Part shown: positions 8,968 through 56,158 of the stretch, one piece after another
Layout: each line of letters begins with the position of its first letter
How positions within the stretch are numbered: the stretch's first letter is position 1
NCBI GenBank assembly: GCA_016208165.1
Contig: JACQYL010000119.1
Coordinates: 947-64,946 of the forward strand
Direction: 5' to 3'
DNA length: 64,000 bases
Origin: Deltaproteobacteria bacterium
GTDB taxonomy: Bacteria > Desulfobacterota > Desulfarculia > JACQYL01
Notes under the pieces: generated by a model
What the model saw: the letters and a program-made list of their open reading frames with translations, nothing else
The model's database searches: none
What the model was told of the DNA's origin: nothing
Translations under genes and position numbers: made by a program

Positions 8968-9555
8968 ATGGCGAAGCAACGACTCGTTACAAACCGCGGA
9001 ACAGGATGGCTGTTCTTCGTTGCTGGATTGGTGTTGATGCTTTTTGTCGGCTGGTTCCTGTTTCCAAAAGCTCTTTATTCCACCAAAACCCAGCCCTTCG
9101 AGTTCAGCCACGCGACCCACGGACCGCAGGGAGCCGCCGGCAATGAGTGTACTGATTGCCATGCTTTTCGCGATGACGGTTCCTATCAGGGAATTCCCCC
9201 CCTCTCCAAGTGCATGGAATGTCATGAGGAGTTGATAGGCGAATCGGAAGCTGAAAGGGAATTTCACGAAAAAGCGTTGGAAATGGCGGAGAATGATGAA
9301 CAAGTCCCGTGGCTGATCTACTCCCGGCAGCCCGTGTGTGTCTATTTCTCCCATGCCGCTCACGTCAAAATGGCTGAACTCGAGTGTACTTCGTGCCATC
9401 CGGATGTCACCAATCAAAAGGCGCCCCTGCCGTACTTTCAGAATCGCATCACCGGATATTCCAAGGATGTGTGGGACCGGATGAAGATGTCGGACTGCGG
9501 GGATTGCCACGAGAAGCACGGCGCCAACAACGCCTGCTTCGTCTGCCACAAGTGA
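8968..9555 (+). CDS. qrcA: Menaquinone reductase, multiheme cytochrome c subunit QrcA
   Basis: A 195-residue membrane-anchored periplasmic cytochrome. Residues 12-32 form an uncleaved signal anchor. Five CxxCH heme motifs start at residues 61 (CTDCH), 82 (CMECH), 140 (CTSCH), 177 (CGDCH) and 190 (CFVCH); between them CVYFSHAAH supplies His ligands and may mark a sixth, non-standard site, since the Desulfovibrio protein is described as hexaheme. QrcA takes electrons from the periplasmic type I cytochrome c3 pool, which is reduced by hydrogenases and formate dehydrogenases. GAGG at 8957-8960 fits the ATG at 8968. It is the first gene of a tight qrcABCD operon, which makes the call firm. Confidence 0.93.
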   Translation: MAKQRLVTNRGTGWLFFVAGLVLMLFVGWFLFPKALYSTKTQPFEFSHATHGPQGAAGNECTDCHAFRDDGSYQGIPPLSKCMECHEELIGESEAEREFHEKALEMAENDEQVPWLIYSRQPVCVYFSHAAHVKMAELECTSCHPDVTNQKAPLPYFQNRITGYSKDVWDRMKMSDCGDCHEKHGANNACFVCHK

Positions 9556-9571
9556 TCGAGGGGTAGATTCT

Positions 9572-11980
9572 ATGAAGTTGGATCGAAGAGGGTTTGTAAA
9601 ATTTCTGGTCGGAGGTGTCGTTGGGACGATGTTGTCCCCGATTCCCTGGAAGCTCACGGACGACATTGCCATATGGACGCAGAACTGGCCATGGGTTCCG
9701 AATCCTCCGAACGGGGCAAATTCGTTCAAGAACACTATAAGCCCGTTCAGGGGCGATGGGATCGGTGTCTCGGTCCGGCTGATCGACCAAAAGCGCGCCG
9801 TCACGTTGTCCGGCGTGCCGGACAACCCCATCAACCAAGGCGGAATGTCGTGCATCGACCTTTCCGGAGTTCAGTATCATTACAATCAGGCCGTTCGTGT
9901 CAAATCTCCCATGGTATTCAGAGACGGCGCCTTTCACGCCATCTCCTGGGAAGAAGCCACGGGTCTGTTTATCGGCAAGCTGAAAGAGATCAGGGACCAG
10001 GGAACGCCGGAAAAAGTGGCGCTGGTCGATGGTTCCGGACCCGGCACCATGAAGGACTTGCTCGGGCGTTTCATGGCCTGCTACGGATCCCCCAATTACA
10101 TGAGTATGCCGAACGCCTCGGATACCGAAGCGCAGATCTTGAAACTGATGTACGGCGCCGGCGGCACCATGGGCTACGACCTGGAGAACGCGGACTTCAT
10201 CATCAGCTTCGGGTGCGGCCTTCTCGAAGGATGGGGCTCCCAACGGACCTTGCTGGCGTATAAGGATTGGCGACAGGAAGGAAATCGAGGCAAGACGACG
10301 CTCATCCAGGTGGCGGCCAACGCATCGACGACCTCCAGCAAAGCGGACCAGTGGGTCGCCATTGCCCCCGGCGCCGAGGGAGCTTTCGCCCTGGGGCTGG
10401 CTCACGTGATTTTGAAAGAGAACTTGGGCAATCTGGGCGCCCTGACGGGGCGCGCTTTTGGACTTGGAAGCGGCGTGGACTCCCAAGCCATGTCCTTCTC
10501 CGGTTTCCGCGACCTGGTCCTCGAGGAGTACGGTCCGGATAAGGTGACTCAAGTTACCGGCGTTTCGCCGGAAAAGATCCAGGACCTGGCCCGGCGATTC
10601 GCTAAGGCCAAGAGTCCCCTGGCCTTACCCGGTCGGGGCAAAGGCACGATGCCCGGAGGATTGTACGAATTCATGGCCGTACACTCTCTGAATGCGCTGG
10701 TGGGCGCCGTGAACCGATCCGGAGGCGTGGGGCCGGTCATGAGTCCTCCACTCACGTCCTGGCCGGAGCCGGCTCTGGACTCCGTGGCGGAAAAAGGTCT
10801 CCGGAACGCCCGCATTGACGGCGCCGGGTCCCGATATCCGTTTTCATCGAGCCTGCTCCATCAGTTCGCTGACGTTGTGGCGGAGGCCCCGAAGTCACCT
10901 GTGGAAATGCTCGTCGTGTACAAATCCAATCCCGCGCATAACGCACCGAGTAGCAAGGAATTTAATCGGGCCCGGTCCAAGGTGCCGTTTGTGGTCAGCT
11001 TTTCTTCGTTCTGGGACGAAACCACCAAAAACGCCAACCTCGTGATGCCCAACCACTCTTTTCTCGAGCGGTGGGAAGACGGCACCACTCCGGCCGGTGT
11101 ACCTTTCCCGACCTACGTGTTGGGTGCCCCCGTTCTGCCCCCCCTGTTCGACACCAGGCCGACAGCGGACGTGATCCTGGAAACGACAAAGGCATTGGGC
11201 GGATCGATCGCTACCTCCTTTCCATGGAAATCGTACGAAGATCTGCTCAAATTCCGCGTGGCGGGAATTGCGGCCAGCCAGCAGGGGGTCGTCTCCGTTC
11301 CGGGCAGCCTTGCCGAACAGCAGCCCAGAGGATTCTCCAGCGCTGGAGACCTATGGTCAAGCCTCACGGAAAACGGATGCTGGTACGACCCAAGTCAGAG
11401 GATCGGTAAGACGGCCACGGGTTTTAACACGCCGAGCGGGAAATTCGAGTTCTACTGCAACGGGATCTCCGAGGGTCTTCGACAGGCCGGTCTTGATCCC
11501 AAACGCCTGAACGTATCGGTCCAGGGCGAGGCTGTTTGCATGGCGCACTTCGAACCCGCGGAGGTCGAAGGAGACCCGCAAAGATACCCGTTGCTCATGG
11601 CGCCCGAAGAACTGGCCTATGTATTCGAAGGAGAGGTTCCCTCTTCCCCATACATGACCAAGATCTGGCCGGATACCCTGCTTAAGGGGAACACCCTGGT
11701 CATTCACATCAATCCCGAAGACGCTCATAACCAGCATCTGTACGAGGGAGACCCGGTTATGATCGAGTCGCTCAAGGGGAGCGCCGAGGTGCGCGTGCAT
11801 CTGTTCAACGGAGTCCGGCCGGGAACCGTGTCCATGGCGGAAGGTTTCGGCCATACGGGTTTCGACGGGTATATACGCGATAAAGGCGCCAATACCAGGG
11901 ACATGACCACCGTAGCCTCCGATGCCCTGAGCGGCATGCCTTTGTGGTGGGGCACTCGGGTCAAATTAACCAAAGTATGA
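9572..11980 (+). CDS. qrcB: Menaquinone reductase, molybdopterin-oxidoreductase-like subunit QrcB
   Basis: An 802-residue protein with a Tat signal (MKLDRRGFVKFLVGGVVG) and the overall fold of the molybdopterin oxidoreductase (CISM) catalytic subunit, with a C-terminal molydopterin-dinucleotide-binding-like domain (PEDAHNQHLYEGDPVMIESL). The usual N-terminal 4Fe-4S Cys motif of the family is not seen, in agreement with knowledge that QrcB carries no molybdenum cofactor and serves as a structural or docking subunit. It would be folded in the cytoplasm and exported to the periplasm with QrcC. It follows qrcA by 16 bases and precedes qrcC by 17. Confidence 0.93.
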   Translation: MKLDRRGFVKFLVGGVVGTMLSPIPWKLTDDIAIWTQNWPWVPNPPNGANSFKNTISPFRGDGIGVSVRLIDQKRAVTLSGVPDNPINQGGMSCIDLSGVQYHYNQAVRVKSPMVFRDGAFHAISWEEATGLFIGKLKEIRDQGTPEKVALVDGSGPGTMKDLLGRFMACYGSPNYMSMPNASDTEAQILKLMYGAGGTMGYDLENADFIISFGCGLLEGWGSQRTLLAYKDWRQEGNRGKTTLIQVAANASTTSSKADQWVAIAPGAEGAFALGLAHVILKENLGNLGALTGRAFGLGSGVDSQAMSFSGFRDLVLEEYGPDKVTQVTGVSPEKIQDLARRFAKAKSPLALPGRGKGTMPGGLYEFMAVHSLNALVGAVNRSGGVGPVMSPPLTSWPEPALDSVAEKGLRNARIDGAGSRYPFSSSLLHQFADVVAEAPKSPVEMLVVYKSNPAHNAPSSKEFNRARSKVPFVVSFSSFWDETTKNANLVMPNHSFLERWEDGTTPAGVPFPTYVLGAPVLPPLFDTRPTADVILETTKALGGSIATSFPWKSYEDLLKFRVAGIAASQQGVVSVPGSLAEQQPRGFSSAGDLWSSLTENGCWYDPSQRIGKTATGFNTPSGKFEFYCNGISEGLRQAGLDPKRLNVSVQGEAVCMAHFEPAEVEGDPQRYPLLMAPEELAYVFEGEVPSSPYMTKIWPDTLLKGNTLVIHINPEDAHNQHLYEGDPVMIESLKGSAEVRVHLFNGVRPGTVSMAEGFGHTGFDGYIRDKGANTRDMTTVASDALSGMPLWWGTRVKLTKV

Positions 11981-11997
11981 GGCAGACGAGGTAAGTA

Positions 11998-12792
11998 ATG
12001 GAAAAACGTCACGGAATCGGCGAAGGTGTCAAGTATGGCATGGTGATCGATCTGGATAAGTGCATCGGATGCGGAGCCTGCGTGACGGCCTGCGTGGCTG
12101 AAAACAACAATACCATTCTCGAAGATGAGACCAATAAGCTGAAGAGCATCACCTGGTTGCGGCTGTACAAATTCGACAACAAGAAACCTTACCCGGAAAC
12201 GGAAATAGGTTACCTTCCGCGCCCGTGCATGCAGTGCGATTCCCATACGCCGTGCGTCTCAGTGTGTCCGGCCACGGCTACGGATTACGATCCTGATACC
12301 GGCATTGTCAGCCAAATCTATACCCGATGCATCGGATGCCGGTATTGCGTGGCCGCCTGTCCGTACCATGTCCGTTACTTCAACTGGTTCGATGCAGTAT
12401 GGCCCGAAGGGACTGAAGCCTGCCTCAACCCGGACGTATCGCCGAGAATGCGCGGATGCGTGGAGCAATGCACCTTTTGCCACCATCGTTTGATGGCGGC
12501 CAAAAATAAGGCGGCAATGAACGGCTCCCGCGAAGTTGCCGAGATGGATTATCAACCCGCTTGTGTCGAAGCGTGTCCTACCCGGGCTATTGTCTTCGGG
12601 GACTTGAACAACAGCAAGCACAGAGTGTACGAACTTAAACAAAGCCCTCGAGCTTTCCGCCTCCTGGAAAGATTGGGGACTCAGCCCAAAGTTTACTATA
12701 CGACCACGCACGAGTGGATACGAGGCATGTCGGACAATTGGATCGACAAAGAAAAGGGAAAAGAAAAGGAAAAGGCGAAAGCTCACTCTTAA
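11998..12792 (+). CDS. qrcC: Menaquinone reductase, iron-sulfur subunit QrcC
   Basis: A 264-residue ferredoxin-like subunit with the four-cluster pattern of CISM electron-transfer proteins: CIGCGACVTAC near residue 22, CMQCDSHTPCVSVC near 79, CIGCRYCVAAC near 111, and CTFCHHR plus CVEACP further on. These clusters pass electrons from QrcA/QrcB to the membrane subunit. It has no signal peptide and is presumably exported together with the Tat-dependent QrcB. The C-terminus is a lysine/glutamate-rich tail of about 15 residues. The gene lies between qrcB and qrcD in the same direction. Confidence 0.93.
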   Translation: MEKRHGIGEGVKYGMVIDLDKCIGCGACVTACVAENNNTILEDETNKLKSITWLRLYKFDNKKPYPETEIGYLPRPCMQCDSHTPCVSVCPATATDYDPDTGIVSQIYTRCIGCRYCVAACPYHVRYFNWFDAVWPEGTEACLNPDVSPRMRGCVEQCTFCHHRLMAAKNKAAMNGSREVAEMDYQPACVEACPTRAIVFGDLNNSKHRVYELKQSPRAFRLLERLGTQPKVYYTTTHEWIRGMSDNWIDKEKGKEKEKAKAHS

Positions 12793-12846
12793 CCGGATCG
12801 AATCGTTTTTAGGGTGACCGCGTAATATATTAGAGAGGAACGCTTT

Positions 12847-14103
12847 ATGGATTCGGCACTTTTTCCAGAAGGAACCAAACGCTGCTCGATCAAGATATTC
12901 GGGTTTTGGTTCTCCGTTTGGAGTCTGATTGTCCTCTGGGGTCTCGTAGGTGCTTATTTCTGCCTGCGATACGGCCTTAACAAGACCAACATGAACGATT
13001 TCTTCGCCTTCGGAGTCTGGATCGTCGTGGACCTGGCCGTCATTGCTTTGGGCGCCGGAGCCTTTTTTACCGGCTTTCTGACGTACATCATAGGCAAAAA
13101 AGAACTCAAAGCCATTATCAATGCGACCGTGATCATCGGGTTCATCTGCTACAGCGGCGCCATATTGATGCTGATGGTGGATATCGGTCAACCCTTACGG
13201 GGATGGTTCGGCTTCTGGCACGCGAACGTACACTCCATGCTCACGGAAGTGATGTTCTGCATCACCACGTACTTGACGGTTCTGATCATCGAGTTTGTAC
13301 CCCTGATTCTGGAAAACCGCCAACTGGACAAGGTCCCGGAACTGCATAATTTCAGTCACCGCCTGCACGAGATCATGTTCGTGTTCGCCGGCGTGGGCAC
13401 ATTTCTCTCGTTTTTTCACCAAGGCAGCCTGGGAGGAATGTACGGTGTCCTGTATGCGCGTCCGTTCGCATTTCGTACCGGCTTCATGATATGGCCCTGG
13501 ACATTCTTCCTCTTTATTCTTTCCGCCATCGCAACGGGGCCGTGCTTTACCATGCTGATCGTATGGATCACTCAGAAAGTCAGTGGAAAACAGTTGGTCA
13601 AGCGTAGCGTTTTCAATCTCTTGGCCAAGATCGCAGGTACGCTCCTTTTAACATATGTCATTCTCAAGATTCTCGATACCTGGTACTGGGCCATATTTAC
13701 GGCCCCGAGCCTGGGATTCGATCTTATGGATTTCTATGCCGGTGGTCCTTATGGTTTCTGGCTTGTAATCCTGGAAATTGGTATATGCGGGATTGTGCCG
13801 GCGTTTCTCCTCCTTTCCCCCAAAGCTCGGGAAAGCAATGTCGTGCTGATCTCGGCGTGCATATTGGCCTGTATCGGAGTTACGCTGAATCGCTTCGTAT
13901 TTGTCGTCCAGACCCTGGCCATCCCGGTCCTGCCCTTCGAAGATTTTTACGGATATCTACCCAGTTGGCAGGAATGGGCCATATCTTCGGCGATTCTGGG
14001 ATACGGCGGCATCATCTACAGTCTGGCCTACCGGTATCTTCCGGTTTTCCCCCAGGAAGTGGAATTGTACCCGGAGAACTTACAGCCCCAGACCGAGGGA
14101 TGA
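12847..14103 (+). CDS. qrcD: Menaquinone reductase, integral membrane subunit QrcD
   Basis: A 418-residue NrfD/PsrC-family membrane protein with about ten hydrophobic segments (for example FWFSVWSLIVLWGLVGAYFC at the start and FAGVGTFLSFFHQGSLGGMY in the middle, the latter resembling the quinone-site region). It binds and reduces menaquinone at the periplasmic side and completes the Qrc complex. In known Qrc this links periplasmic hydrogen and formate oxidation to sulfate reduction and contributes to energy conservation. GAGAGGAACGCTTT precedes the ATG. A strong terminator follows at 14129, closing the operon. Confidence 0.93.
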   Translation: MDSALFPEGTKRCSIKIFGFWFSVWSLIVLWGLVGAYFCLRYGLNKTNMNDFFAFGVWIVVDLAVIALGAGAFFTGFLTYIIGKKELKAIINATVIIGFICYSGAILMLMVDIGQPLRGWFGFWHANVHSMLTEVMFCITTYLTVLIIEFVPLILENRQLDKVPELHNFSHRLHEIMFVFAGVGTFLSFFHQGSLGGMYGVLYARPFAFRTGFMIWPWTFFLFILSAIATGPCFTMLIVWITQKVSGKQLVKRSVFNLLAKIAGTLLLTYVILKILDTWYWAIFTAPSLGFDLMDFYAGGPYGFWLVILEIGICGIVPAFLLLSPKARESNVVLISACILACIGVTLNRFVFVVQTLAIPVLPFEDFYGYLPSWQEWAISSAILGYGGIIYSLAYRYLPVFPQEVELYPENLQPQTEG

Positions 14104-14348: not shown

Positions 14349-14604
14349 GGCTTCCTCCGATTGTGAAAATTCTAACAGCATTATTTTTTATTGCCGAACG
14401 AGTGTCAAGGAAAATCGCGCCCTCCTTTGTTACCAACCGGTTTACTCCGGGAGGCTTTTGTGATTAGAATACGCGTCGAACAAATCGTCTTACCCGATTG
14501 AAACCCTACAAGGGTTCGGTCCTCACGAGTACTCCGTAGAGGATTTCTTCGAAGCTGCAGCGTGGGGCTCGGCCCTTGATAACTTGATTAAGGAGGACAC
14601 GTTC

Positions 14605-15615
14605 ATGTTTCATCCGACTCTGAAGGACCGTATGTATCTTCTCGGGATCCTTCTGGTGGTATTTTGTCTCTCTGTACCTGCGTTCGCCGAACCTAAAATT
14701 TCGGTGGACAGCCTCAAATACGAGTTCGGCGAGCACTGGGAAGACAGTCAAATCTCACACACCTTTACTGTCGAAAACACGGGAGACCAGGAACTCATTA
14801 TTGAAAAGGTCCGCACTTCTTGAGGATGCACCGCGGTCAAGTTTGATCGCCAAATTGCTCCCGGTGCAAAGGGAAATGTCACCTTGTCCGTGAACACAAA
14901 GGGACTGAAAGGCCAGTTTCACAAAACCGCCAACATCGTATCCAATGCCCCTTCAAGCCCGGAGGTGCAGTTGGAGCTCTCGGGGTTCGTCAAGAATTAC
15001 ATCGAGGTGAAGCCATCCACGTATGTCCAGTTGCGGTCCACGGGAGGGAAACCGGCTTCACAAACGGTGGAATTCAACTCGGGGGTTCCGGGTGAGTTGC
15101 TTTTCACCAAAATGGAGGTCTCCCCCGGCATCCAGCAAGGCATTGAGACCAAACTCGTTCGGGGCGAGGACAAAAGATCGTACACCCTTGAAATCACAAG
15201 TCTTTATAAAGAGATTGGAAATAATCAGGGACAAATCCTCATCCAAACCAACAATGAGAAGAAACCCGAGATTTCACTTCGAATCATTGCGGTGGTCCAG
15301 GGCCCCATCCAGGTGGCGCCACAGCGCCTTCATTTTGGCAATGTAAGGAGGCCCGCCCAACCGGGCGCCCTGAAGCGTACGATCTGGTTGAAAAAGACGC
15401 AGGGAGCGGACTTCAAGATCACCGGCCTGGAATACGATCACGACGCGTTCGAACTGCAGGTCGTGGACCGTAAACCCGGTGAAGAATACATCATCATGGT
15501 GTCTCTGAAGCCGGAAAAATTAAAACAGGGCCTTCAGAACGAAACCATCCTGATCAAGACGGACCATGAAGAAATGAAGAGCATCAGTATTCCGGTGGTA
15601 TTGGTGGTACAGTGA
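14605..15615 (+). CDS. Exported DUF1573 protein with in-frame TGA, probable selenoprotein
   Basis: A 336-residue exported protein read through an in-frame TGA at 14821-14823 (residue 73). AGGAGG at 14591 supports the ATG at 14605, and a signal peptide ends near AFA/EP. DUF1573 domains have a hallmark Cys-Gly-Cys-Thr after the first strands; here the text is VRTS-U-GCTAVKFD, so the TGA sits exactly at the first conserved Cys. Downstream the reading continues without fault: IAPGAKGNVTLSVNTKGLKG, then two more Ig-like repeats to the TGA at 15613-15615. A SECIS-like hairpin begins 11 bases after the TGA. I therefore read residue 73 as selenocysteine. A U-G-C pair suggests a redox or metal-binding role in the periplasm. 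A sequencing error or pseudogene is the alternative, less likely given the hairpin. Confidence 0.85.
14827..14868 (+). promoter_or_regulatory. Bacterial SECIS-like stem-loop
   Basis: CGGTCA (14834-14839) pairs with TGATCG (14844-14849), with one G-U pair, around the loop AGTT. The loop starts 16 bases after the TGA and has G as its second base, as the bacterial SECIS consensus asks. An outer 7-bp stem TGCACCG (14827-14833) with CGGTGCA (14862-14868) can add support. Confidence 0.65.
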
Positions 15616-44719: not shown

Positions 44720-44882
44720 CTAGGCGACCTGTTGCCCGACCGCGCCCTTTCATCCATTGGACCCATCGTCATGGTGGAAAAACCGGGTCCGCTTGTGATA
44801 CACTGCGTCGCCGTTCGGAGGAGAATGTTGGCGCAAAGACGTTCCCAACGAAGTTCAAGAACTCTGCATTTTGGAGCTGAAG

Positions 44883-45350
44883 ATGAAAAAACTGAATCCC
44901 CAGTGGACAAGCTTAATTCAGGACCAGGTCAATGCCTGTCCGTACTTCTCCCTGCAATCCATGGAAATCAAGGAACTCTCGTTCGGTGCGTCGCTAATCG
45001 AGATTGACGTTCAAAACAAGCACCTGCAACCTTTCGGCAACGTGCACGGAGGCGTCTTTTCGACCCTGATCGATGCGGCCGGCTTCTGGGCGTTGTATAC
45101 CGAAATCGAACCCGGTATGGGCATGACCACGGTCGAGATGAAATTAAATTATCTGGCGCCCGCATCGGACGGACGTCTCATCGGCTTTGGAAAGACCATC
45201 AAGATGGGCCGGACATTGGGACTGGCGGACGCGAGAATCGAGGATCAACGGGGCCGACTGCTGGCTCACGGCACGGTGACCCTTATGGTCCTGCGAGACC
45301 TGAAGCTGGAAGGACAGGAAGGACTGCCGGCGAAATTCCTGCCCGAATGA
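44883..45350 (+). CDS. PaaI-type hotdog thioesterase
   Basis: A 155-residue hotdog-fold acyl-CoA thioesterase of the PaaI/YdiI kind. The signature NVHGGVFSTLIDAAGFWALY has the catalytic HGG-x(7)-D layout, followed by TTVEMKLNYLAPASDGRLIG. It hydrolyses acyl- or aryl-CoA thioesters in the cytoplasm. The ATG at 44883 is preferred to a TTG at 44871 because GGAG lies six bases before it. It is convergent with the response regulator gene 15 bases away. Confidence 0.88.
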   Translation: MKKLNPQWTSLIQDQVNACPYFSLQSMEIKELSFGASLIEIDVQNKHLQPFGNVHGGVFSTLIDAAGFWALYTEIEPGMGMTTVEMKLNYLAPASDGRLIGFGKTIKMGRTLGLADARIEDQRGRLLAHGTVTLMVLRDLKLEGQEGLPAKFLPE

Positions 45351-45364
45351 GCGGATGGACCGCC

Positions 45365-46006
45365 TCAAGCCAAACGAATGATTTTTTCCCTTATGGCGTA
45401 CTTCACGATCCCGGCCGTGTCGCGGATGTTGAGTTTTTTCTTGATGTTGTCCTTGTGTCCTTCCACGGTTTTCACGCTCAGGTGCAGAAGATCGGCAATC
45501 TCCTTGTTGGTTCTGCCTTCCGCCACAAGCTGCAACACCTCGATTTCCCTGGACGACAGAATACGGTCCGAGGTGTCCAGCTCTTTGATGTAATCTTCCA
45601 GAACGATCTTCGATATGGAGGGACTGAAAAAAGCCTCTCCTTTGAGCACGGCTTCTATGGCATCGAACAGCTGGCTCACCGCCGACTTTTTCACCACATA
45701 GCCGGACGCCCCGCATTGCAGCATCTGGCGAATGGATTCCTTGTCTTCATACATGGTGAGGACCAGGATTTTGCAGTCGGGAAAGCGCTTCTTGATTTGT
45801 CGGGTCGCTTCCAGACCGTTCAGGTCAGGCATGGAAACGTCCATGATGACGATGTCCGGATGCAGCTCTTCCACTTCCCGGATGGCTTCCCTTCCCGTGG
45901 AGGCTTCACCGACAACGATGAAATCCTCCCTTGCCTCGAGAAGAGAACGAATGCCCTCCCTGACAATGGTGTGATCGTCCGCGATCACAATTCGGCGCTT
46001 ATTCAT
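45365..46006 (-). CDS. LuxR/NarL-family response regulator
   Basis: A 213-residue regulator: receiver with Asp10/Asp11, phospho-acceptor Asp56 in IVIMDVSMPDLNG, and a late KKSAVSQLFDAI; a C-terminal LuxR HTH (LSSREIEVLQLVAEGRTNKE, IADLLHLSVKTVEGHKDNIK). It should be phosphorylated by the kinase whose gene overlaps its start by four bases (ATGA at 46003-46006). It is the last gene of the solute-binding protein / kinase / regulator operon. Confidence 0.93.
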   Translation of the reverse strand: MNKRRIVIADDHTIVREGIRSLLEAREDFIVVGEASTGREAIREVEELHPDIVIMDVSMPDLNGLEATRQIKKRFPDCKILVLTMYEDKESIRQMLQCGASGYVVKKSAVSQLFDAIEAVLKGEAFFSPSISKIVLEDYIKELDTSDRILSSREIEVLQLVAEGRTNKEIADLLHLSVKTVEGHKDNIKKKLNIRDTAGIVKYAIREKIIRLA

Positions 46007-54103: not shown

Positions 54104-54228
54104 ATCACACGGGGGAAAACTTTTGAAACCCCGCCGCGGGCGGGGTTCCCCCGTACCCTTTTTCAAAACTTTTCAGGTGGGGGGCGCCGCTCCGCGAAGG
54201 CGGTGCGGCATGCTTAGGGAGTCTGAGT

Positions 54229-54249
54229 CCCGCCGGAGGCGGGCTTTTT
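54229..54249 (+). terminator. Intrinsic terminator between binding proteins and livH
   Basis: CCCGCC, loop GGA, GGCGGG, then CTTTTT. It lies 50 bases before livH and would reduce permease and ATPase expression relative to the binding proteins. Confidence 0.75.
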
Positions 54250-54300
54250 AAAGTCTTCCTCAGTTAAATTCAAAAAAAATCCCTCAGCAGAGCTCAACCG

Positions 54301-55161
54301 ATGGAAACCGCTGTAAATGCCATCATAGGGGCGCTTGTACTCTCTTCCATGTATATCCTGGTGGCGTTGGGTTTCGCGCTGCTTCTCAGCATCATGGGCG
54401 CTCTCAATTTCGCCCACGGCGCCATATACATGGTGGGGGGCTACATATGCTATCAATTTGCCGCTGAGTTCGGTCTCAATCAATGGCTGTCCTTGCTCAT
54501 TTCCGTCATCATCATGAGCGCATTCGGATTGCTCCTCGAGAAGTTCTGTTTCCGGCCGTTCTTTGGGGACATGAATCGAACCATTGTGATGTCCATAGCC
54601 ATTGTTCTCGTCCTCGAAACCACGGTGAACATTCTGGTCGGCGTTCATGTAAGGTCGTTGCCGGCCTTTGTTCCGGGGATTTTGAGGGTCGGAGCCATTT
54701 CACTGAGCGCCGAAAGGCTGATCACCTTCATCATAGGAATTCTTCTGCTGGCGGCTCTGATCGCGTTTATACACAAAACAAAGACGGGTCAGCAGATGCT
54801 GGCCGTTTCTCAAGAACCTGAAGGAGCCGCCCTGCAGGGAATCGAGATCCACCGGATATCCGCCCTGGCCTGCGCCATGGGTTGCGGCCTGGCTGCAGTG
54901 GCCGGGAGTTTGATGGGCGCCGTGTTCGAGTTGAGTCCTTTCATGGGGGACTACATGCTGGTCAAAGCCATTCAGCTGGTCATCCTGGGAGGGATAGGGA
55001 GCATCGTCGGCGTTTTGGCCGGAGGGCTCATCGTAGGCGCCATAGATGCCGTATTGCCCTTGTTCACAAGCGGCGCGGTTACTCAAACGGTCGGTCTTGC
55101 CATTATCATCGTTCTCCTGCTGCTGAGGCCTCAGGGCTTGTTCGGCCGCGAGGTATCGTAA
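54301..55161 (+). CDS. livH: Branched-chain amino acid ABC transporter permease LivH
   Basis: A 286-residue membrane protein of the LivH type with about eight helices: LVALGFALLLSIMGALNFAH (the conserved N-terminal GALNFAHG motif), GLNQWLSLLISVIIMSAFGL, and the EAA-like KAIQLVILGGIGSIVGVLAG near the end. With LivM it forms the channel. No good ribosome site is visible before the ATG at 54301, which fits low expression after the terminator at 54229. LivM follows after ten bases. Confidence 0.92.
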   Translation: METAVNAIIGALVLSSMYILVALGFALLLSIMGALNFAHGAIYMVGGYICYQFAAEFGLNQWLSLLISVIIMSAFGLLLEKFCFRPFFGDMNRTIVMSIAIVLVLETTVNILVGVHVRSLPAFVPGILRVGAISLSAERLITFIIGILLLAALIAFIHKTKTGQQMLAVSQEPEGAALQGIEIHRISALACAMGCGLAAVAGSLMGAVFELSPFMGDYMLVKAIQLVILGGIGSIVGVLAGGLIVGAIDAVLPLFTSGAVTQTVGLAIIIVLLLLRPQGLFGREVS

Positions 55162-55171
55162 ACGAGGCATT

Positions 55172-56158
55172 ATGACGCGGAACACCGTTTCTCCCGCCGG
55201 GAGCGACAGACGGATCACGATCGCTTTGTACGCCGGCCTGTTGATTATCGTCCTGGCGGCGCCGTTGTTCATCAAGTCACGTTACCTGATTCATATTTTC
55301 AACCTGACGCTCATCAACATCATAGCCGCCGCCAGCCTTCGATTCATCGCCGTGTCGGGTCAACTCTCCCTCGCCCACGCCGCCTTTATGAGCATCGGAG
55401 CCTATACGGCCGGTATATTGGCCAAGCATCTCGGATTGGGGCCCTGGATCACGATTCCCGCCGGAGCGCTGGTGACCATGGGGGTGGCCATTTTGATCGG
55501 CTATCCGTTGGCCCGACTGCGGGCGATCTACTTCTCCATGGTCAGCCTGTTTTTCGGCATCGGGATTCTGGCCGTTAACCAGGTCCTCGAAAAGTACACG
55601 GGCGGATATTCCGGCCTCATCGGTATCCCTCCCCTGTTTTCCGGGTCCAAGGTCGCGAATTACTACTTCTTTACCGGGCTCACCGTTTTTAGTCTGGTCG
55701 TTCTTCATCGGCTCGAATTCTGCCGCATCGGCATGACTCTCAAGAGCATCGCCCAGTCCCATATGGTGGCGTCCAGTGTGGGCATCAACGAGTCGGGGTA
55801 CCGGATTTTTGCCCTGGCCATAGGGTGTTTGTTTGTGGGTGTGGCCGGCGCGGGCTTTGCCTACTACTCGGCCGTCCTGTCACACAGCGCTTTCAACTTT
55901 CTGGCGAGCGTCAATTTCCTGGTATATGTATTGGTGGGCGGCATCGGACATTTCGCGGGACCCATCGTCGGAACGGCCGTGCTCATCATCATTCCGGAGC
56001 TTTTCCGCGCGTTGAAAGGGTTCGTCCCTTTCATTTTTGCCGGTATCATGATTCTCGTGATTTTTGTGATGCCCCTGGGCTTGGTGGGTCTGCCCTCGCA
56101 GATCGCATCCTCAGTCAAAAAAATCCGCGAGAGAAAGGCGTTTCCGGATGCTCCTTGA
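55172..56158 (+). CDS. livM: Branched-chain amino acid ABC transporter permease LivM
   Basis: A 328-residue membrane protein of the LivM type: about ten helices, SGQLSLAHAAFMSIGAYTAG (family motif), PLARLRAIYFSMVSLFFGIG, and VYVLVGGIGHFAGPIVGTAV (coupling-loop region for the ATPase). It pairs with LivH. Its last codons overlap livG by 11 bases, so the permease and ATPase are translated together. Confidence 0.92.
   Translation: MTRNTVSPAGSDRRITIALYAGLLIIVLAAPLFIKSRYLIHIFNLTLINIIAAASLRFIAVSGQLSLAHAAFMSIGAYTAGILAKHLGLGPWITIPAGALVTMGVAILIGYPLARLRAIYFSMVSLFFGIGILAVNQVLEKYTGGYSGLIGIPPLFSGSKVANYYFFTGLTVFSLVVLHRLEFCRIGMTLKSIAQSHMVASSVGINESGYRIFALAIGCLFVGVAGAGFAYYSAVLSHSAFNFLASVNFLVYVLVGGIGHFAGPIVGTAVLIIIPELFRALKGFVPFIFAGIMILVIFVMPLGLVGLPSQIASSVKKIRERKAFPDAP

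Follow-up and report, generated by a model that had tools for sequence, protein, structure and literature searches.

DUF1573 (PF07610) with the motif UGC appears among the prokaryotic selenoprotein families listed in PMC9312934 and PMC13188914, both of which cite Zhang and Gladyshev (2007) for its first report, in the delta1 symbiont of Olavius algarvensis. No function is given for the domain by the titles or abstracts of the literature searched. Another system compared is the N-terminal domain of DsbD (nDsbD), an Ig-like periplasmic thiol carrier according to the title of a paper by Goulding et al. (2002) that PMC7347389 cites. The gene described here lies in a window of 64,000 nucleotides, which is the whole stretch of DNA that was analysed. 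It shares with the DUF1573 'UGC' family the domain, the UGC motif, the position of selenocysteine (Sec), the SECIS directly downstream, and the broad bacterial group (the former Deltaproteobacteria). No difference in kind was observed; the window protein has two additional Ig-like regions, and its genome encodes a second Sec paralogue. It is one more member of an already catalogued selenoprotein family, which also has its own NCBIfam model (NF041425), and therefore it is not a discovery. What the present analysis contributes is a census across the phylum, the observation of recent exchanges between Sec and Cys, and the finding that thioredoxin, CcdA and DUF1573(Sec) genes recur together in arsenic-type clusters.

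The gene (14605–15615, plus strand) encodes 336 amino acids when its in-frame TGA at 14821–14823 is read as Sec, and ends at the stop codon TGA at 15613–15615. The in-frame TGA is the sole interruption of the frame and corresponds to residue 73, the first of U-G-C, at the first Cys of the Cys-Gly-Cys motif of DUF1573. This position, already proposed by the first-pass annotation, was confirmed by the translation, by the alignment with homologues, and by the two halves of the protein, which match the Pfam DUF1573 model separately (31.3 bits before the TGA and 48.4 bits after). With the TGA read through, residues 33–129 match PF07610 with 94.9 bits, against a gathering score of 26.1, and the NCBIfam model NF041425, OS_HP2 (seleno)protein, is matched with 111.5 bits, against a curated cut-off of 100. 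The export, the ribosome binding site and the long remaining frame claimed earlier also held. The sequence AAGGAGG (14590–14596, plus strand), read from the sequence and scored, lies 8 bases upstream of the ATG, and the hydrophobic N-terminal segment ends in ...SVPAFA followed by EP. This reading, together with a predicted helix at residues 5–21, points to a probable signal peptide in residues 1–28 (14605–14688, plus strand; AFA / EP). Judged from its sequence, the gene very probably encodes an exported selenoprotein of the DUF1573/OS_HP2 family, in which Sec from the in-frame UGA replaces the conserved Cys.

The AlphaFold2 model (49 rows; mean pLDDT 94.8) presents a helix at residues 5–21 and three beta-sandwich regions. 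The first is the DUF1573/HYDIN-VesB Ig-like domain with the UGC loop (14701–14991, plus strand; Pfam residues 33–129), with U73-G74-C75 in a turn between strands 64–71 and 75–80; two more Ig-like regions (15001–15612, plus strand) cover residues ~133–232 and ~235–335, with approximate limits. The only invariant positions in the family are N58, G60, L64, C73, C75, P86, G87 and G90. The best Foldseek matches were HYDIN-type and other Ig-like domains (E 1e-18 to 1e-12), with low TM-scores of ~0.3 and large rmsd, which means agreement by domain and not across the whole chain. Pfam PF22544 also matches the window protein; the HYDIN/ASH-type domains of cilia, however, belong to structural proteins without the Cys/Sec pair. 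The single window protein had no convincing sequence relative of known structure, and the family profile found only the uncharacterised protein 2qsv (E 0.012) among known structures. Cys-type DUF1573 proteins (C-G-C-T), from the same phylum and from Bacteroidota, have the fold, motif position and export of the window protein, with Cys for Sec and without the excess hairpin after the codon. Those from genomes of the same class, the three-domain relatives of family f3 (L012–L034), are all of the Cys type and equal the window protein in length and architecture.

The sole recurrent functional hint is the gene arrangement thioredoxin-CcdA-DUF1573(Sec). In three genomes, from three families, the Sec DUF1573 gene comes directly after genes for DsbD_TM (CcdA) and thioredoxin, with genes for an ArsC-type LMWPc and an ArsP permease nearby and, in L054, also an SBF/ACR3-type transporter. 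These arsenic-type clusters are located at L054 1848–7743, L055 1–7637 and L190 4298–9904. The link with CcdA and thioredoxin, adjacent in these three loci and looser in L229, is absent from most of the 81 neighbourhoods, and neither gene was found near the DUF1573 gene of the window. A two-row profile search of genome contigs returned mostly proteins of Chryseobacterium and other Bacteroidota, and no thioredoxin or CcdA neighbours of these matches were detected by the profiles used.

These clusters suggest a concrete, testable function for DUF1573. The nDsbD domain is likewise Ig-like and periplasmic, and it carries a redox pair of two residues, a role that Sec73 and Cys75 may also have; it sets a precedent for a redox shuttle built on an Ig fold. 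Three relatives of the window gene adjoin CcdA/DsbD_TM and thioredoxin genes. The comparison is an analogy only, as no sequence match was found, and the spacing of the DsbD redox pair differs from the U-x-C of the window protein. Considering the clusters and this precedent, we favour a periplasmic selenol/thiol carrier, whose redox-shuttle part, drawn from the gene neighbourhood of a few relatives, we hold to be slightly the better bet. Sec73 would lie within the Sec-Gly-Cys loop of the first Ig-like domain out of three. Once the protein is exported, the most likely role of Sec73 and Cys75 would be that of a reversible selenenyl-sulphide pair engaged in periplasmic thiol/disulphide exchange. 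The DUF1573 selenoprotein would receive its electrons from the cytoplasm by way of CcdA/DsbD-type carriers in the membrane and thioredoxins in the periplasm. A broader proposal, which we offer tentatively and hold to be less likely than not, is that DUF1573 selenoproteins may be non-thioredoxin Ig-fold periplasmic selenol carriers, from CcdA/thioredoxin to metalloid-detoxifying or respiratory partners, and that the phylum may use many paralogues alternating Sec and Cys.

Another explanation concerns the function only and is compatible with the selenoprotein claim: Sec is inserted, but UGC would be a site for copper or another soft metal, or the protein would be an accessory of Qrc electron transfer, with no thiol/disulphide shuttle. 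C-x-C loops are common metal sites, and some relatives occur in metalloid (ars-type) clusters. The window gene is also downstream of a qrcABCD-type operon (8968–14103, plus strand), in which Pfam recognised a multihaem cytochrome, a molybdopterin-type subunit, a 4Fe-4S protein and NrfD. However, a gap of 501 bases with a promoter-like site separates the operon from the DUF1573 gene, the invariant family positions include no conserved His or Met, and the qrcABCD linkage was found in the window only, being absent from the other DUF1573 neighbourhoods clustered. This explanation is possible but rather improbable, and a functional link with Qrc as a general rule was rejected because no other neighbourhood clustered repeats the linkage. 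The neighbourhoods of three DUF1573 matches in other genomes (L052, L056 and L059) have in common a group of genes that, to judge from their sequences, are pilM/pilO/pilQ-like.

The selenoprotein reading itself has to be weighed against a real stop, that is, a pseudogene, a sequencing or assembly error of a Cys-type DUF1573, or a truncated product of 72 residues. The genome is a draft of 142 contigs in which at least one gene, selA, has a broken frame, which would agree with such an origin, but the homologues make it very unlikely. In the profile alignment of 94 distinct homologues, the codon at the motif column was TGA in 58, TGC in 33 and TGT in 3, and no other codon was present; none of them lacked both Cys and TGA, as the first-pass annotation had expected of a true Sec site. 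The window TGA is thus more than chance, since the column holds TGA in 58 of 94 sequences and Cys in the other 36. There was no further TGA within the aligned domain in 88 of the 94, and in the window gene the frame downstream of the TGA is conserved to its end. A diverged, full-length paralogue of the same genome (G000:C115:32551–33501, L010), 41% identical to the window protein, carries TGA at the same codon (RHVKTTUGCVAVKF) and is the closest relative of the window gene on the tree.

The census gave the same picture at the level of the phylum, where DUF1573 matches were found in 166 of the 395 genomes searched. Among the 150 matches listed, a lone internal TGA, without any other stop, was present in 75; 55 lacked internal stops, and 20 showed other patterns, among them 3 with a single TAA and 3 with a single TAG. 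Because Sec members supplied the query, the proportion of Sec in these counts is biased, while the contrast of TGA with TAA and TAG is unbiased, and the rarity of the latter two argues against a real stop. About half of the listed matches thus have the Sec codon, and the window gene, which ordinary annotation would truncate at the TGA, is a member of this large selenoprotein family.

Translation of the UGA as another residue (e.g. Trp), whether through a suppressor or a genetic code altered throughout the genome, would also leave the frame open once the TGA is read through, but its probability is negligible, given that the window gene itself terminates at the TGA at 15613–15615, that the homologue column has Cys and never Trp, and that the genome possesses tRNA-Sec and SelB.

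The Sec machinery was searched in this genome (G000), a draft assembly of 5.69 Mb in 142 contigs. Among the four sel genes that the first-pass annotation had named as a check, three were found: the tRNA-Sec gene selC in contig C33 (77 bits, anticodon tca), selB in C98 (384 bits, full length), and selD in C58 (362 bits). The fourth, selA, is present in C48 (L043, around 1318–1900), with 536 bits over positions 100–454, but is frame-broken in the assembly: the model positions 1–50 and 100–454 are matched in two frames, with ~50 codons lost near the 5′ end and a frameshift. Since the remainder of selA is well conserved and the genome has a formate dehydrogenase alpha gene with a canonical Sec codon, we interpret the break as probably either a fault in the assembly or a lesion of very recent date. 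The formate dehydrogenase gene (G000:C66:34262–36256, L235; 861 bits) served as a positive control, with an in-frame TGA in ...CARLUHSSTVAG... followed by a hairpin read from the sequence, CCGUGGCA-GGUCU-UGCCACGG, which is a textbook SECIS. SelB was above the cut-off in 31 of 33 TGA-bearing genomes tested and in 24 of 29 Cys-only genomes; its presence is consistent with Sec insertion but weak and not discriminating, because most Cys-only genomes have it too.

A bacterial SECIS-like hairpin, GCGGUCA-AGUU-UGAUCGC, is located at 14833–14850 (plus strand), with the stem formed by 14833–14839 and 14844–14850 and the loop AGUU at 14840–14843. The loop is 16 nt past the TGA and has G second and U third. 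The first-pass annotation was right about this distance, the G and the agreement with the bacterial SECIS rules, while the stem has 7 bp, including one G-U, and is one pair longer than it had stated. The rules given in PMC13188914 are a loop of 3–9 nt, a stem of 4–16 bp, G in the first two loop positions, a spacing of 16–37 nt and an MFE of at most -7.5, and the hairpin agrees with all of them; the folding energy of its region is -14.7 kcal/mol for 49 nt and -10.8 for 36 nt. Taken alone it is modestly unusual (P = 0.04–0.11 against synonymous recodings; z = -1.26 against dinucleotide shuffles).

The comparison across the family was more informative. Each gene was recoded synonymously with its own codon usage, which separates RNA from protein constraint. 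TGA members exceeded their own recodings with a mean z of 1.77 and P<=0.05 in 16 of 30, and their combined P of 3e-13 is optimistic since the compared rows are related; in Cys members the mean z was 0.36, with P<=0.05 in 2 of 24 and a combined P of 0.09. The difference between both groups was significant (P 4e-4). A strict SECIS score pointed in the same direction (mean z 0.76 for TGA against -0.18 for Cys members, P 0.005; per gene, the window gene had P 0.04 and its paralogue P 0.006), as did folding energy alone (P 0.003). Several TGA members had no good element under the strict score, and their hairpins are looser types. The paralogue has the same hairpin loop as the window gene in a stronger hairpin, and additional conservation of synonymous codons around the hairpin between these two genes was not significant (7/13 against 57/119). 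The strength of the hairpin evidence is in the family, and the window hairpin by itself is modest. SelB and Sec-tRNA would decode the UGA at 14821 with the downstream hairpin, which would make residue 73 a selenocysteine. This recoding is strongly supported at the level of sequence, and the claim of Sec at the hallmark Cys, made earlier for this gene, is well supported by the homologue codons, the family hairpins and the sel genes.

Sec and Cys have been exchanged within the family. A rapidly built maximum-likelihood tree (49 proteins) implies at least 5 changes, 3 of them forced by well-supported branches, and near sister genes differ in two cases, L038:481 (Cys) from L088:464 (Sec), and L032 (Cys) from L050 (Sec). 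Pairs of closely related genes that differ in this way offer a natural experiment on the contribution of Sec. Tandem pairs of two-domain DUF1573 genes were also observed in L038 and L088, one genome having Sec+Cys and its relative Sec+Sec. In the window, two more frames are split by a single TGA, at 44799–45593 and 54214–55281, with weak coding scores.
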